From an uncultured Devosia sp. (GTDB lineage: Bacteria > Pseudomonadota > Alphaproteobacteria > Rhizobiales > Devosiaceae), in NCBI GenBank assembly GCA_946481445.1, contig CAMLOA010000088.1:1-7203 (forward strand): 7,203 nucleotides of DNA, read 5' to 3'. Within the stretch, counting starts at the first letter, position 1; each line of letters begins with the position of its first letter. Positions 1 through 6,195 of the stretch are shown in pieces. The notes under the pieces are model-generated. The model did not search any database, was not told where the DNA came from, and worked only from the letters and a program-made list of their open reading frames with translations. A program made the translations under genes and the position numbers.

Positions 1-463
1 TGGCGCGGGCGGAGTCGCGGTTGGAATAGGCGTCCAGCGCTTCCTTGATCTGGCGCAGCACCAGGGCGGTCATGTTCTTGACGCCATTGTAGAAGGTGGG
101 CTGCAGGTTGAGGCCCTCGAGCTTTAGGGAGCGACGCGCAAGCTGCTTGGCCATGTCGCCGACGCGTTCCAGGTCGGAGGCGACGTGGATGGCGGTGATG
201 ATCGAGCGGAGGTCCGAGGCCATGGGCTGGCGGCGGGCAATCATGGAGACGGCCACGTCGTCTATATGGCGCTGCATGTCGTCGATGCGCTGGTCGGCAA
301 TGATGGTGACATCGGCCAGTTCGCGATCAAGACGGAGCAGGGCCTTGGTGCCGTTCTCGATGGCAACCTCGACTTGGCCACCCATTTCGTTGATCAGCTG
401 GGCGAGCGCAATGAGTTCTTCATTGTAGGACGTGACGATGTGTTCGGCGCCGGTATTGGGCAT
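1..463 (-). CDS. phoU: Phosphate transport system regulatory protein PhoU (partial, C-terminus beyond the window)
   Basis: PhoU is a cytoplasmic, helical protein that links the Pst transporter to the PhoR histidine kinase and so keeps the Pho regulon off when phosphate is plentiful. The visible part is 154 codons starting MPNTGAEHIVTSYNEEL; the family is usually about 220-240 residues, so roughly the last third is cut off by the window edge. The sequence is all-helical in character. It carries the conserved DLERVGDMA motif at about residues 97-105, the acidic E/DxxxD-type motif that binds metal in PhoU three-helix bundles. The ATG at 463-461 has an AAAGGA ribosome-binding sequence 7 bp upstream. 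It lies 28 bp after the pstB stop, the usual position at the end of a pst operon, and probably shares the pstS promoter. Because the amber codon in pstB is upstream in the same message, polar effects on phoU are possible (inference). Identification rests on motif, length and operon position. Confidence 0.95.
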   Translation of the reverse strand, partial: MPNTGAEHIVTSYNEELIALAQLINEMGGQVEVAIENGTKALLRLDRELADVTIIADQRIDDMQRHIDDVAVSMIARRQPMASDLRSIITAIHVASDLERVGDMAKQLARRSLKLEGLNLQPTFYNGVKNMTALVLRQIKEALDAYSNRDSARA

Positions 464-491: not shown

Positions 492-1316
492 TCAGCCGAT
501 ACGGCCCATGATGTAGTCCTGGGTCTGCTTGTTGACCGGATTGGTGAAGATGTCTTCGGTGACGCCTTCCTCGATCAGCTTGCCCAGGTGGAAGAAGGCG
601 GTCTTCTGGCTGACGCGCGCCGCCTGCTGCATGGAGTGGGTCACGATGACGATGGTGAAGTTCTCGCGCAGCTCGTCGATCAGTTCCTCGATGATGGCGG
701 TGGCGATGGGGTCGAGGGCCGAGCAGGGCTCGTCCATGAGCAGCACTTCGGGCTTGGTAGCGATGGCGCGGGCAATGCACAGGCGCTGCTGCTGGCCACC
801 GGACAGGCCGGTGCCGGGCTCATGCAGGCGATCCTTGACCTCTTCGAACAGGCCGGCCTTGCGAAGGGAAGAAACCACGATCTCTTCGGTTTCGGCCTTG
901 TTGGACACCATGCCGTGGATCTTGGGACCGTAGGCGACGTTCTCGAAGATCGACTTGGGGAAGGGATTGGGCTTCTGGAACACCATGCCGACGCGGGCAC
1001 GCAGTTCCACAACATCGAGGTTCTTGTCGTAGATGTCCTCGCCATCGAGCGTGATCCTGCCAGTGACGCGGCAGATGTCGATGGTGTCGTTCATGCGGTT
1101 GAGGGAGCGCAGGAAGGTGGACTTGCCACAGCCGGACGGGCCGATCAGCGAGGTGACCCGATTGCGGTCGATCTCCAGATTGACCCCGAACAGGGCCTGC
1201 TTGGCGCCGTAGAAGACGCTGACATCCTCACCCTACATCGCCGCGGTGGGCGGGACGGCGGCATGCTCGGGCTTTGCTACGAGCGTCGAGCCCTTGTTTT
1301 CGGTCATCGCGTTCAT
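492..1316 (-). pseudogene. pstB: Phosphate ABC transporter ATP-binding protein PstB, interrupted by an in-frame TAG
   Basis: PstB is the cytoplasmic ATPase of the PstSCAB importer. Read through, the frame encodes 274 codons, a normal PstB length. Numbered from the ATG at 1316, it has the A-loop tyrosine in VFYG (about 36), Walker [10 protein letters not shown] (59-67), Q-loop VFQKPNPFP (Gln 114), signature LSGGQQQR (171-178), Walker B VLLMDEP (Asp 195, Glu 196), a D-loop SALD and switch His 227 in VTHS. Codon 28 is TAG (1235-1233), directly after an ATG and just before GEDVSVFYG. The frame is identical on both sides, so a single base change explains it. No ATG, GTG or TTG occurs in frame between the TAG and Walker A; the next ATG (1094) is past Walker A and would give an inactive fragment. 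The start is the ATG at 1316 or, with better GAGAG spacing, the ATG at 1307. The gene follows pstA by about 50 bp. It is a true pseudogene, a suppressed amber or a sequence error. Confidence 0.9.
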
Positions 1317-1365: not shown

Positions 1366-2649
1366 TTACCAGCGCCGTTCCAGCCGCTGCCGCAGGAAGA
1401 TGGCGACCGCATTCATGACCAGCAGGAAGCCCAGCAGGACCATGATGCCCGCCGACGTCCGCGCAACGAAGCCGCGTTCGGGGCTATCTGCCCAGATGTA
1501 GATCTGGGTCGGAAGCGTCGTGGAGGCTTCCAGGATGCCCCCGGGAGGGCTGGTGATGAAGGCGTTCATGCCGATCAGCAGCAGGGGTGCTGTTTCGCCC
1601 AGCGCGGCGGCCATGGCAATGATGGTCCCTGTGAGGATGCCGGGCAGAGCCAGCGGCAATACGTGATGGAAGATCACCTGCTGGGGCGAGGCGCCCATGC
1701 CATAGGCGGCTTCGCGGATGGAGGGGGGTACCGCCTTGAGGGCGTTGCGGGTGACGATGATCAGGGTCGGCAGGGACATCAGGGCGATGACGAGGCCGCC
1801 GGCCAGGGGCGCCGAGCGCGGTATGCCGAAAATCTGGATGAAGACGGCAAGGCCGAGCAGGCCGAAGACGATGGAGGGCACCGCGGCCAGGTTGTTGATG
1901 TTGACCTCGATGATGTCGGTCCAGCGGTTCTTGGGTGCGAATTCCTCAAGGTAGATGGCGGCGCCAATACCCATGGGAAAGCTTACCAGGAAGCAGATCA
2001 GCACCACGTAGATGGAACCAACCATGCCGTTGAGCAGGCCGGCAATCTCGGGGAAGCGGCTGTCCGGATTGGTGAACAGAGCCCAGTTGAAGGGCGCCGA
2101 CACGCGGCCATCGGCAACGAGCTGGTCGAACCAGGCGATCTGCTGGTCGCTGACGCGGCGATTTTCCTCGGGGGTGTCGCGGCGAACGGTACCCTTGTTG
2201 AGCTGGTCGAACTCGTCCGAGGCCGGCACTTCCAGTGTCAGGGTCTGGCCGATCAGGCCGGGATTGGCGATGACGGCATTGCGCACGAAGAACTGGGTGT
2301 TGTTGGTGAGCAACTGGCCCAGGGCGCGGACCTCTGCCGTGCCCTCGACGCCGGGCAGCAGGTTATCCAGCCCGTCGGCCACAACAGCGCGCCAGTTGGC
2401 GCTGGCCGGATCGGCCGGATCGACATCGGCCGGAATGGCGAAATCAACGCGGATATGGGTCTGGATGAAGGCCGGATAGCCACCGATCACGATGGTGAAC
2501 AGCAGGATGCCCAGCAGGCCGACCGCTGCGGAGATCGCCGCCACGCCATAGGCGCGCAGGCGGAGATCGGCCGCGTTTCGCCTGTTGCGCAGGCGGGCCC
2601 GGTTGACGGTGACAGTCTCGACCTGGGTCGGCAGGATTGCGTCGGTCAT
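1366..2649 (-). CDS. pstA: Phosphate ABC transporter permease PstA, long alphaproteobacterial form
   Basis: PstA is one of the two inner-membrane subunits that form the phosphate channel with PstC. The protein is 427 residues, much longer than the roughly 300-residue enterobacterial PstA. A basic cytoplasmic N-terminus (about 1-33) precedes a first membrane helix (about 34-57). A soluble, presumably periplasmic domain of about 150 residues follows (60-203), matching the DUF3333-type N-terminal extension known in this group. The permease core then begins at about 206 with helices near 206-232, 253-275, 283-300, 338-360 and 399-419. The cytoplasmic EAA loop, which docks on PstB, is clear as EAAYGMGASPQQVIFHHVLP (313-332). 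The ATG at 2649 lies 7 bp after the pstC stop, and a GAGG ribosome-binding sequence overlaps that stop, which suggests translational coupling to pstC. The stop is TAA at 1368-1366. The gene looks intact, but its ATPase partner downstream is interrupted. Confidence 0.96.
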   Translation of the reverse strand: MTDAILPTQVETVTVNRARLRNRRNAADLRLRAYGVAAISAAVGLLGILLFTIVIGGYPAFIQTHIRVDFAIPADVDPADPASANWRAVVADGLDNLLPGVEGTAEVRALGQLLTNNTQFFVRNAVIANPGLIGQTLTLEVPASDEFDQLNKGTVRRDTPEENRRVSDQQIAWFDQLVADGRVSAPFNWALFTNPDSRFPEIAGLLNGMVGSIYVVLICFLVSFPMGIGAAIYLEEFAPKNRWTDIIEVNINNLAAVPSIVFGLLGLAVFIQIFGIPRSAPLAGGLVIALMSLPTLIIVTRNALKAVPPSIREAAYGMGASPQQVIFHHVLPLALPGILTGTIIAMAAALGETAPLLLIGMNAFITSPPGGILEASTTLPTQIYIWADSPERGFVARTSAGIMVLLGFLLVMNAVAIFLRQRLERRW

Positions 2650-2656
2650 GATGGCC

Positions 2657-4036
2657 TCAGTCGTACTGTTCGCGATACTTGCGCACGATGTTCAGGGCGA
2701 TGACGTTGAGCCCGAGCGTCACAAGGAACAGCACGAGGCCAAGCGCGAAGGCGGCAAGGGTCTTGGGGTTGTCGAACTCGGTATCGCCGGTGAGCAGCGA
2801 GACGATCTGCACCGTCACGGTGGTGACCGAGTCCATCGGGTTGATATTGAGGGTGGCGATCAGGCCTGCGGCCATCACCACGATCATGGTTTCGCCGATG
2901 GCGCGCGACAGGGCCAGCAGGATGCCGCCGACAATACCGGGCAGGGCGGCCGGCAGCAGGACCTTGGTCATGGTCTCGGCGCGGGTGGCGCCCATGGCCA
3001 GCGAACCATCGCGCATCGAGCGCGGCACGGCGCGAATGGCGTCGTCGGCCAGCGAGGAGATGAAGGGGATGATCATGATGCCCATGACCAGGCCGGCGGC
3101 CAGCGCGCTGTTGGGCGAGGTGGTGATGCCCAGGAGGCTGCCGGCATTGCGCACTGCCGGGGCCACGGTGAGCACGGCGAAGAAGCCGTAGACCACGGTG
3201 GGCACGCCAGCGAGCATTTCCAGCACGGGCTTGATGACATTGCGGACGCCGTCCCCGGCATATTCGACCAGGAAGATGGCGGTGAACAGCCCGATGGGGA
3301 TGGCCACCAGCATGGCGATGGTGGAGATGACGATCGTGCCGAGGAAGACCGGGACGGCGCCGAACGCGCCCTGGCCGGCCACCTGGTCGGCGCGAATGGC
3401 GATCTGGGGTTCCCAGCGCAGACCGAACAGGAATTCGTGCACCGGCACCATGCGGAAGAAGGCCAGCGACTCCCAGATCAGGGAGACGATGATGCCGACG
3501 GTGGTCAGGATCGCAACGACCGAGCACAGGATCATGGTCGTCATGACGAAGGTTTCAAAGCCGGTGCGGGCGCGGAAGCGGGGGCTGAGGCGCGAGACGG
3601 CGAAGAACAGGCCCAGCAGCATGGCGGCCATTGCCACCACGACCATGGCCCAGGCGGCGATCTGCTGCCAGCGAACCAGGGTTTCGGCGGCGACAACCAC
3701 GGCCGGATCGGGTTCGCCGAACAGCACGCCGGAGGCCACATTCTTGATTTCGGACAGCAGCAGGGACATCTGGGCCGGGCTGCGGCCTTCGGTCAGCGCA
3801 GCGGGGAGGGTCCCCAGCAGCATGTTGTCGATGACGGAGCCCTGCAGGATGAGCCAAAGGATGACAAGGACAAGGGCGGGGACACCGACCCATACCGCCA
3901 CGAAGGCGCCGTGATAGCCGGGGAGCGAATGGACCTTGGCCCCCTCCACTGCAGCAAAGCGTTTCCCTGAATTGCGGCCGATGAAGAAGGCCACAAGTGC
4001 GAAAACCAGAATAGCAAGAAGGAGATAGCCGACCAC
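2657..4036 (-). CDS. pstC: Phosphate ABC transporter permease PstC, long form
   Basis: PstC is the second channel-forming inner-membrane subunit of the phosphate importer. I place the start at the GTG at 4036-4034, giving 459 residues beginning MVGYLLLAILVFALV, because a consensus GGAGG lies exactly 6 bp upstream and the protein then opens with a membrane helix, as long PstC proteins do. The upstream in-frame GTG at 4087 would add 17 proline- and arginine-rich residues, would lie inside the hairpin after pstS, and lacks a ribosome-binding site. Predicted helices lie near 3-20, 43-65, 126-147, 163-187, 229-256, 275-297, 312-330, 364-392 and 428-452. Residues up to about 190 are the extra N-terminal region absent from the shorter (about 320-residue) enterobacterial PstC. 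The EAA-type loop is RDGSLAMGATRAETMTKVLLP (about 342-362). A GET motif (381-383) occurs in the same position as in PstA (351-353). The stop TGA is at 2659-2657, 7 bp before pstA. Confidence 0.95.
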   Translation of the reverse strand: MVGYLLLAILVFALVAFFIGRNSGKRFAAVEGAKVHSLPGYHGAFVAVWVGVPALVLVILWLILQGSVIDNMLLGTLPAALTEGRSPAQMSLLLSEIKNVASGVLFGEPDPAVVVAAETLVRWQQIAAWAMVVVAMAAMLLGLFFAVSRLSPRFRARTGFETFVMTTMILCSVVAILTTVGIIVSLIWESLAFFRMVPVHEFLFGLRWEPQIAIRADQVAGQGAFGAVPVFLGTIVISTIAMLVAIPIGLFTAIFLVEYAGDGVRNVIKPVLEMLAGVPTVVYGFFAVLTVAPAVRNAGSLLGITTSPNSALAAGLVMGIMIIPFISSLADDAIRAVPRSMRDGSLAMGATRAETMTKVLLPAALPGIVGGILLALSRAIGETMIVVMAAGLIATLNINPMDSVTTVTVQIVSLLTGDTEFDNPKTLAAFALGLVLFLVTLGLNVIALNIVRKYREQYD

Positions 4037-4042
4037 GGTGAG

Positions 4043-4047
4043 CCTCC
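4043..4047 (-). promoter_or_regulatory. Ribosome-binding site that fixes the pstC start
   Basis: The minus strand reads GGAGG here, followed by 6 bases and then GTG (4036-4034) in the pstC frame. This is a full consensus Shine-Dalgarno sequence at ideal spacing. It favours the internal GTG over the farther upstream in-frame GTG at 4087. Confidence 0.8.
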
Positions 4048-4073
4048 AGCGGGGGCGAGGGCATGCAGAAGGA

Positions 4074-4102
4074 GGAAGCCGGGGCACGGGGCCCCGGCTT
4101 CC
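4074..4102 (-). promoter_or_regulatory. Perfect 12-bp hairpin between pstS and pstC (attenuator or mRNA stabiliser)
   Basis: The arms GGAAGCCGGGGC (4074-4085) and GCCCCGGCTTCC (4091-4102) are exact reverse complements separated by a 5-base loop, giving a very stable GC-rich stem. It begins 9 bp after the pstS stop codon. In the direction of transcription it is followed by CTTCC/TTCTGC-type sequence without a run of four or more U residues, so it is not a classical strong intrinsic terminator. In binding-protein transporter operons such hairpins commonly protect the upstream binding-protein message or let only part of transcription through, so that PstS outnumbers the permease. That role is inferred here. 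A small second palindrome, GGTCAGACC (4103-4111), sits directly between the pstS stop and the hairpin. Confidence 0.8.
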
Positions 4103-4111
4103 GGTCAGACC

Positions 4112-5152
4112 TTATTTGGCAGGGGCCGCCATGGCGACGCTGCCTTCGACGTTGGCGCGAGTTGCATCGCGCTCTTCGGCCGGCAGGGAGATCAGGCCGC
4201 GCTCGGCCAGGTAGCCGCCTTCACCAAAGGCTTCCTCGGAGACGTATTCGGTGACGAATTCGTTGAGGCCGGGGATGACGCCCTTGTGGGCGTTCTTGAC
4301 GTAGATGTAGAGCGGACGCGACACGGCGTAGGAACCATCAGCAATGGTCTCGGGGGCCGGCAGGACGCCATCGACGGCAACGGCCTTGAGGGTGTCGCTG
4401 TTCTCGAACAGGAACGAGTAGCCGAAGATGCCCAGGGCGTTCGGGTCGGCGTTCAGGCGCTGCACGATCAGGTTGTCGTTCTCGCCGGCTTCGATGAAGG
4501 GACCGTCCTGACGCATGCGCGAGCAGGTCTCTTCCATCTTGTCTTCTTCGAGAGCGGCAATGGCTTCGAACTCGCCGCAGCCTTCGAGCATGACCAGCTC
4601 GACGAAAGCGTCACGGGTGCCCGAGGTCGGCGGGGGGCCGAACACGGTGATCGGGGTGCTGGGGAGCGACGCGTCGATGTCGGACCAGTTCTTGTAGGGG
4701 TTGTCGACGATGGCGCCTTCGACCTCGACCTGGGCAGCCAGTGCCTGGAAAAGCTGGGCCTTGGTCAGGCTCAGTTCCGGACCCTGGTTGGAATGGGCGA
4801 TGGAGAGCCCGTCATAGCCGATGAGCACTTCGGTGATCGAGTCGACGCCATTGGCGACGCACAGCTCGTACTCGGACAGCTTCATGGCGCGCGAGGCGCC
4901 AGTGATATCGGGGAAGTCAGCGCCGACGCCTTCGCAGAAGATCTGCATGCCGCCGCCGGTACCGGTCGATTCAACGACGGGGGCGGTGCCACCGGTCATG
5001 GCAGCGAACTGCTCGGACACGGCCTGGGTGTAGGGGAACACGGTGGACGAGCCGACGATGCGGATCTGGTCGCGCGACTGGGCGAAGGCAGCGGTGGTGC
5101 CAAACGCGGCGAGCGCGATCACGGCAGCACTGGCGTAGAGTGCGATCTTCAT
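4112..5152 (-). CDS. pstS: Periplasmic phosphate-binding protein PstS
   Basis: PstS captures inorganic phosphate in the periplasm and delivers it to PstC/PstA. From the ATG at 5152 it is 346 residues. A typical Sec signal peptide (MKIALYASAAVIALAAFGTTAAFA) ends with an AFA|Q cleavage site at about 24/25. Phosphate-binding loops of the family are visible: IVGSSTVFP (32-40), STGTGGGM (62-69), GASRAM (85-90) and PTSGTRDAF (175-183). Four cysteines (about 73, 98, 192, 210) could form disulfides in the periplasm. I chose this start because GGGAAG lies 5 bp upstream and the signal peptide begins directly. The in-frame ATG at 5182 would add ten polar residues (MKMNSEREVP) before the signal peptide. 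It is the first gene of the operon, behind a Pho box about 120 bp upstream, so strong induction under phosphate starvation is expected. The stop TAA (4114-4112) is followed by a stable hairpin. It looks intact. Confidence 0.97.
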   Translation of the reverse strand: MKIALYASAAVIALAAFGTTAAFAQSRDQIRIVGSSTVFPYTQAVSEQFAAMTGGTAPVVESTGTGGGMQIFCEGVGADFPDITGASRAMKLSEYELCVANGVDSITEVLIGYDGLSIAHSNQGPELSLTKAQLFQALAAQVEVEGAIVDNPYKNWSDIDASLPSTPITVFGPPPTSGTRDAFVELVMLEGCGEFEAIAALEEDKMEETCSRMRQDGPFIEAGENDNLIVQRLNADPNALGIFGYSFLFENSDTLKAVAVDGVLPAPETIADGSYAVSRPLYIYVKNAHKGVIPGLNEFVTEYVSEEAFGEGGYLAERGLISLPAEERDATRANVEGSVAMAAPAK

Positions 5153-5270: not shown

Positions 5271-5288
5271 ATGACGCGTTTGTGACAG
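5271..5288 (-). promoter_or_regulatory. Pho box (PhoB operator) upstream of pstS
   Basis: The minus strand reads CTGTCACAAACGCGTCAT, two 7-base half-sites (CTGTCAC and GCGTCAT) separated by an AT-rich 4-base spacer. This is the 11-bp repeat period of the PhoB consensus CTGTCATnnnnCTGTCAT. Its orientation matches pstS and it has a -10-like hexamer at the right distance. Under phosphate limitation PhoB~P would bind here and turn on the whole pst-phoU operon. The identification follows from the sequence and from the well-known control of pst operons; binding itself is inferred. Confidence 0.82.
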
Positions 5289-5409: not shown

Positions 5410-5444
5410 GCATGCTAGCCCGGTTTTGTGACAGGCATGCTAGC
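5410..5444. repeat. 10-bp direct repeat flanking a Pho-like half-site at the pcaR stop
   Basis: GCATGCTAGC occurs at 5410-5419 and again at 5435-5444, 25 bp apart, with the second copy covering the pcaR stop codon. Each copy is two overlapping 6-bp palindromes (GCATGC and GCTAGC), so the pair can also form short inverted pairings. Between them the minus strand carries GCCTGTCACAAA, the same 12-mer that forms the left part of the main Pho box at 5279-5290. No U-tract follows, so I do not call a terminator. Confidence 0.6.
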
Positions 5445-6195
5445 GCAGCAGCGGGCGCACTTCGGACTGCACCTTGCGCATCAGGGGCAGGAAATTGGCG
5501 ATCATGTGCGAGGTGGAGGCGCGGGCGGACTGGGCGCCGATATTGAGCGCGGCAACGGTCTGGCCCTGGGCATTGAGCAGGGGCACGGCGATGGAGCACA
5601 GGCCCAGTTCGAGTTCCTCGTCGATGACGGCAAAACCCTGCGCGGCGACCACGGCCAGTTCGGTGGTGATCGTCTCGAGATCGGCCTTGGTCTTGTCGGT
5701 ATAGGCGATCAGGTCGGACCGATCGAGGATGTCGCGGGCGCGGGCCGGCGGCATGGCAGCCAGCAGGATACGGCCCATGGAGGTGCAATAGGCCGGCAGG
5801 CGCGCGCCGGCACCCAGATTGATCGACATCACCCGGCGGTAGGAGGCGCGGGCGATGTAGAGGATGTCGGTATTGTCGAGGACCGCCGCGGAGGAGGACT
5901 CGTTGATCTGGGCGGAGAGCTCTTCGAGAAAGGGCTGGATCAGCCGGGGCAGGGGCGTGGCCGCCAGGTAGGAATGGCCGAGGTTGAGCACGCGCGGCGT
6001 GAGGCGGAAGAACTTGCCGTCATAGGTGGCGTAGCCGAGATGGGTGAGGGTCAGCAGGCACCGGCGGGCGGAGGCGCGTTCGAGCCCGGTGCGGTTGGCG
6101 ACATCGGTGATCGAGAGGCTGGCATGTTCCTCGTCGAAGCATTCGATGACGGCGAGGCCCTTGACCAGGCCATTGATGATATCGCCTTCGCGCAT
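5440..6195 (-). CDS. pcaR: IclR-family transcriptional regulator, PcaR type (beta-ketoadipate pathway)
   Basis: This is a 251-residue DNA-binding regulator of the PcaR/PcaU/PobR branch of the IclR family. The N-terminal winged helix-turn-helix covers about 5-70: LSITDVANRTGLERASARRCLLTL is the helix-turn-helix, and YATYDGKFFRLTPRVL is the wing and linker. The C-terminal effector domain follows (about 85-250) with LPAYCTSMGRILLA (133-146) and ELGLCSIAVPLLNAQG (196-211), segments typical of PcaR proteins. I start at the ATG at 6195 because AGGAAAG lies about 6 bp upstream; the in-frame ATG at 6234 would add 13 unsupported residues. It is divergent from a 3-oxoadipate CoA-transferase gene, the arrangement in which PcaR activates pcaIJF in response to beta-ketoadipate. 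That pairing is the main support for the specific name. The inducer is inferred from the family. Its 3' end lies 287 bp before pstS, which is transcribed in the same direction but has its own promoter. Confidence 0.88.
   Translation of the reverse strand: MREGDIINGLVKGLAVIECFDEEHASLSITDVANRTGLERASARRCLLTLTHLGYATYDGKFFRLTPRVLNLGHSYLAATPLPRLIQPFLEELSAQINESSSAAVLDNTDILYIARASYRRVMSINLGAGARLPAYCTSMGRILLAAMPPARARDILDRSDLIAYTDKTKADLETITTELAVVAAQGFAVIDEELELGLCSIAVPLLNAQGQTVAALNIGAQSARASTSHMIANFLPLMRKVQSEVRPLLR

Follow-up and report, generated by a model that had tools for sequence, protein, structure and literature searches.

An in-frame amber codon in pstB of a Devosia-like alphaproteobacterium: a candidate recent nonsense allele

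The pst locus and the interrupted pstB frame

The window, by which we mean the whole stretch of DNA analyzed (7,203 nucleotides), carries on its minus strand a pcaR-type regulator followed by pstS, pstC, pstA, pstB and the start of phoU. In this order pstB occupies its place within a predicted pstS-pstC-pstA-pstB-phoU operon. The features are as follows, with profile scores given against the cut-off of each model:

2..463, minus strand: phoU, partial, running off the window (PF01895, 73.3 bits; cut-off 23.5)
492..1316, minus strand: pstB frame, phosphate ABC transporter ATPase, interrupted (TIGR00972 and relatives)
492..1094, minus strand: 200-residue frame from the first ordinary start past the TAG (listed as P0122)
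1233..1316, minus strand: leader frame of 27 codons ending at the TAG, read from the sequence
1233..1235, minus strand: in-frame TAG, pstB codon 28, read from the sequence
1366..2649, minus strand: pstA, intact (TIGR00974, 219.3 bits; cut-off 193.45)
2657..4036, minus strand: pstC, intact, 459 residues from a GTG at 4036 (TIGR02138 and P0154)
4112..5152, minus strand: pstS, intact (PF12849, 170.9 bits; cut-off 27)
5271..5288, minus strand: weak PHO-box-like site upstream of pstS, two mismatches to the consensus, not significant
5440..6195, minus strand: pcaR-type IclR regulator with TAG as its stop (TIGR02431, 338.2 bits; cut-off 284.75)

With the ATG at 1316-1314 as codon 1, the pstB frame has a TAG at codon 28 (1235-1233). 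The other 273 codons are open, 27 before the TAG and 246 after it in a single frame that terminates with TGA at 494-492, and pstB is consequently left without a complete translatable reading frame. With X placed at codon 28, the frame scores 400.3 bits against the NCBIfam model for PstB, TIGR00972 (cut-off 343.2), and the motifs at codons 59, 171 and 192, which we take to be Walker A, LSGGQ and Walker B, all share it. Single-base changes that create a stop number 64 of 2466 on this frame. The initial annotation had placed the TAG at codon 28 of the minus-strand pstB frame, and both coordinates and frame were correct on recheck; its reading of a single substitution is borne out by the one frame shared on either side of the codon, and a frameshift was rejected as the cause on the same ground. 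It had also described pstS, pstC, pstA and the visible part of phoU as intact, and all four are open and match their families, pstS by PF12849 while falling under the cut-off of TIGR02136 (150.9 bits; cut-off 206.6). For pstC, the longer frame at 2657-4087 scores 268.7 bits against TIGR02138 (cut-off 196.45).

The same annotation held that no conventional restart could give an active ATPase, and this was confirmed. From the TAG up to codon 59, where Walker A starts, there is no ATG, GTG or TTG, and the first ordinary restart, ATG codon 75 at 1094, lies past Walker A (59-67). The 200-residue remnant beginning there retains LSGGQ and Walker B and is without both Walker A and Tyr 36, presumably the A-loop residue. 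Before Walker A only near-cognate codons are available: AAG 39, CTG 42, CTG 47 and ATC 49. Such codons do lie 3' of the TAG, but that one of them, or ATG 75, should start a shortened and useful PstB is scarcely credible: all are past Tyr 36, which is invariant in 120/120 relatives (the best 120 of 8000 scored), and ATG 75 falls past Walker A as well. An out-of-frame restart directly after the TAG, of 26 codons, was rejected.

Several further observations concern the surrounding DNA. The pst operon looks mosaic (window 1450-4150), with Ks to G059, the nearest genome compared (85% over pstB-pstA DNA), of 0.52-0.57 in pstA and pstC and of 0.34-0.43 in phoU, pstB, pstS and pcaR; PstC and PstA are nearer to those of L114 (84 and 86%) than to those of L113 (80 and 79%). 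This pattern is compatible with recombination and equally with a chimeric contig. On the plus strand, antisense to pstB, 432-1418 is open for 328 residues, most likely as a shadow frame in GC-rich DNA. Two copies of the decamer gcatgctagc, at 5410-5419 and at 5435-5444, surround the end of pcaR. A search of the window with a PHO-box consensus, allowing two mismatches, gave one match against a mean of 0.10 expected, and a match also turned up in 21 of 200 shuffled sequences, which is not significant; with three mismatches allowed there was one match against 1.60 expected.

Constraint on pstB and the rarity of internal stops

PstB relatives were taken as the best 120 of 8000 scored from a predicted-protein database, which cannot show an interrupted PstB and speaks to the residues of intact relatives, not to the frequency of stops. 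Aligning relatives at codon 28 had been proposed as a check in the initial annotation; within the best 120 of 8000 the site is variable, with R the commonest residue (42), followed by E (17), V (16), A (15) and K (13) and, more rarely, T (5), S (4), I (3), Q (2), H (2) and M (1). The Walker A residues checked in the same relatives (59, 66 and 67) are invariant. PstB chains of known structure, identified by sequence (9k3x, 9k3y and 9k3s), align from query residue 30 onward, which places the TAG just upstream of the conserved PstB core. The closest PstB among these 120, P0002, differs only at residues 21 and 25 and at the stop, with zero residue differences over codons 29-274 at the protein level; the second-closest, P0003, is named Devosia sp. 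XGJD_8, and it is for this reason that the window is termed Devosia-like.

The rest of pstB is strongly constrained. Between the window and G059, codons 29-274 of pstB carry 44 synonymous and 3 nonsynonymous changes (Ka/Ks 0.018), and the corresponding ratios are 0.043 for whole pstB, 0.125 for pcaR, 0.194 for pstS, 0.211 for partial phoU, 0.255 for pstC and 0.275 for pstA. At near-invariant columns, defined as at least 97% alike among the listed relatives (120 PstB and 119 PstC), the window departs at none of 174 in PstB and none of 210 in PstC. The picture in pstB is thus of one lesion in an otherwise constrained frame. Since Ka/Ks is 0.018 and the protein match to P0002 is exact after the TAG, the stop should be either very recent or absent from the cell, in support of the earlier suggestion of a very recent event or a base error, and an old pstB pseudogene is very unlikely on the same two grounds.

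To place the stop among related genomes, PstB was surveyed in the family to which G001 belongs (the Devosiaceae; G001 is the Devosia naphthalenivorans genome that contains L001), with matches accepted at E 1e-70 or better. A match was found in 129 of 136 genomes, 133 matches altogether, with a single match in 125 of the 129. Only one of the 133 contains an internal stop, as counted over the matched stretch, which often starts only past residue 15-27 and in a few cases is truncated where a contig stops. The exception belongs to G082 (L117), a genome of 2.0 Mb. Its pst operon (L117 2957-7736) looks broken throughout: the pstS and pstC matches are split over two frames, and pstB has a TAG inside its frame, is missing its end and reads on into phoU, a state that could reflect either decay or poor sequence. 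G082 therefore resembles the window in having a TAG inside the pstB frame within the same genome family, and differs from it in the split pstS and pstC and the loss of the pstB end into phoU, whereas in the window the TAG is the sole damage seen. Across the order, 366 of 397 genomes have a PstB match, and no internal stop appears among the matches listed, a sample from which no rate can be derived. In viral_contigs, six stretches matched the PstC pattern and none encodes a relative; among plasmid records 25 matched, none of them over as much as 80% of the query.

Nonsense allele, sequence error or read-through

We favor a real and very recent pstB nonsense allele in a Devosia-like alphaproteobacterium, with a probability of about one half. 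In its favor are the open frame on both sides of the stop, the lack of an ordinary start ahead of Walker A, the constraint on codons 29-274, the absence of departures at near-invariant columns, the gene set of G059 and the pst lesions recorded in other strains. Several results count against it. An exact search for the 30-mer containing the TAG gave no match in either genome_contigs or viral_contigs, and the truncated product P0122 (200 residues) is listed for a single contig (9299 bases), while a PstC identical to that of the window (P0154, 459 residues) is on two, the longest of 9997 bases; here the listing is read as contigs bearing the exact protein, a reading that is not beyond doubt. On the second P0154 contig, pstB may be intact, the contig may end before pstB, or the gene may have been called differently. 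Internal stops are moreover very rare in the family, and the sole case sits in a broken-looking operon.

A serious contender, at somewhat under even odds, is that one base is wrong in the consensus or assembly of a short contig and that pstB is intact in the living cell. The very strong purifying selection on the rest of pstB, which bears no further damage, the presence of the remnant on a single contig and the 132 of 133 family matches that are without an internal stop all speak for it. Against it, the window holds no other oddity: its five complete frames have no frameshift, none of the 384 near-invariant positions departs, and the TAG site lies outside any homopolymer run. Poor sequence overall is not indicated, given the absence of departures at near-invariant PstB and PstC columns. 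Early decay of the operon, with another pst operon or carrier serving the cell, finds some support in the four of 129 family genomes with two PstB matches and in the broken-looking operon of the 2.0 Mb genome, but it is most improbable in a window whose pstS, pstC, pstA and remaining pstB are open and constrained, and G059 has one PstB match.

Useful read-through of the TAG, by an amber-suppressor tRNA or near-cognate decoding, would restore some full-length PstB, and the variability of residue 28 (best 120 of 8000 relatives) implies that many inserted amino acids should be tolerated. We nevertheless consider it very unlikely. UAG is in use as a normal stop, since pcaR, the one gene examined, ends in TAG both in the window and in G059, and reading through that codon would append 86 residues in the window; the one stop-bearing match among 133 in the family, in its broken operon, also weighs against it. 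With TAG ending pcaR in both genomes, recoding is disfavored, and of the three causes offered in the initial annotation (recent event, suppressor, base-calling error) it is the suppressor alone that loses ground. Programmed recoding of the pstB TAG was rejected; general decoding of UAG is disfavored by the pcaR stop, and weak suppression is still compatible with it. A more speculative version, in which the strain carries the amber codon as a stable trait, a suppressor tRNA gives partial read-through, PstB is kept low and the Pho regulon sits permanently half-on, has an even slimmer chance. None of the results suggests a new decoding mechanism or new biology, and the lesion is of an ordinary kind.

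Predicted Pho phenotype and comparable lesions

If the nonsense allele is real, translation of pstB would stop after 27 residues, and the only ordinary restart would yield a 200-residue remnant without Walker A, leaving no active ATPase. In Escherichia coli, PstSCAB and PhoU are required for the high-phosphate signal to PhoR, according to one report (PMC4423584). By analogy with this scheme, Pst transport would be lost, PhoU and PhoR would no longer receive the phosphate-replete signal, PhoB would stay on, and phosphate would be taken up by a Pit-type carrier. The gene set of G059 includes, besides its single PstB match, one PhoB match over the cut-off, downstream of phoU, and a Pit/PHO4 carrier. 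Given this gene set and the E. coli scheme, a pstB null should live on Pit with a raised Pho regulon, and the organism of the window would by extension do the same. The best PhoR match in G059, however, is a kinase scoring 282.4 bits, under the cut-off of 334.2, which counts against the scheme proposed for a real allele. Three elements of this account are inferred: the presence of the stop in living cells, a single copy of pstB in the genome, and the entire phenotype.

Comparable lesions are on record. Sinorhizobium meliloti 1021 carries one in pstC, which in strain Rm1021 reportedly gives moderate PhoB activation at sufficient phosphate and which is variously described as a deletion, frameshift or point mutation (PMC4468178, PMC12445080, PMC3616915). 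The Rm1021 lesion is like that of the window in being one small lesion in one pst-operon gene of an alphaproteobacterium; it differs in affecting pstC, in a laboratory strain that also has corrected derivatives, whereas the window has a candidate nonsense codon in pstB. A second case comes from the gammaproteobacterium Klebsiella pneumoniae. There, too, a pst gene acquired a premature stop in a non-laboratory setting: a pstS nonsense allele that affects the Pho regulon is reported in a clinical isolate, Sanger-confirmed and complementation-tested (PMC5532282). In the window the gene is a different one, pstB, and the nonsense codon a candidate.

Should the TAG be an error, it is a caution against inferring phenotype from one base on a short contig. 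Should it be real, the window would hold a pst loss-of-function allele comparable to the one known from laboratory S. meliloti 1021, a reminder that near-identical strains can differ in how their Pho regulon behaves.
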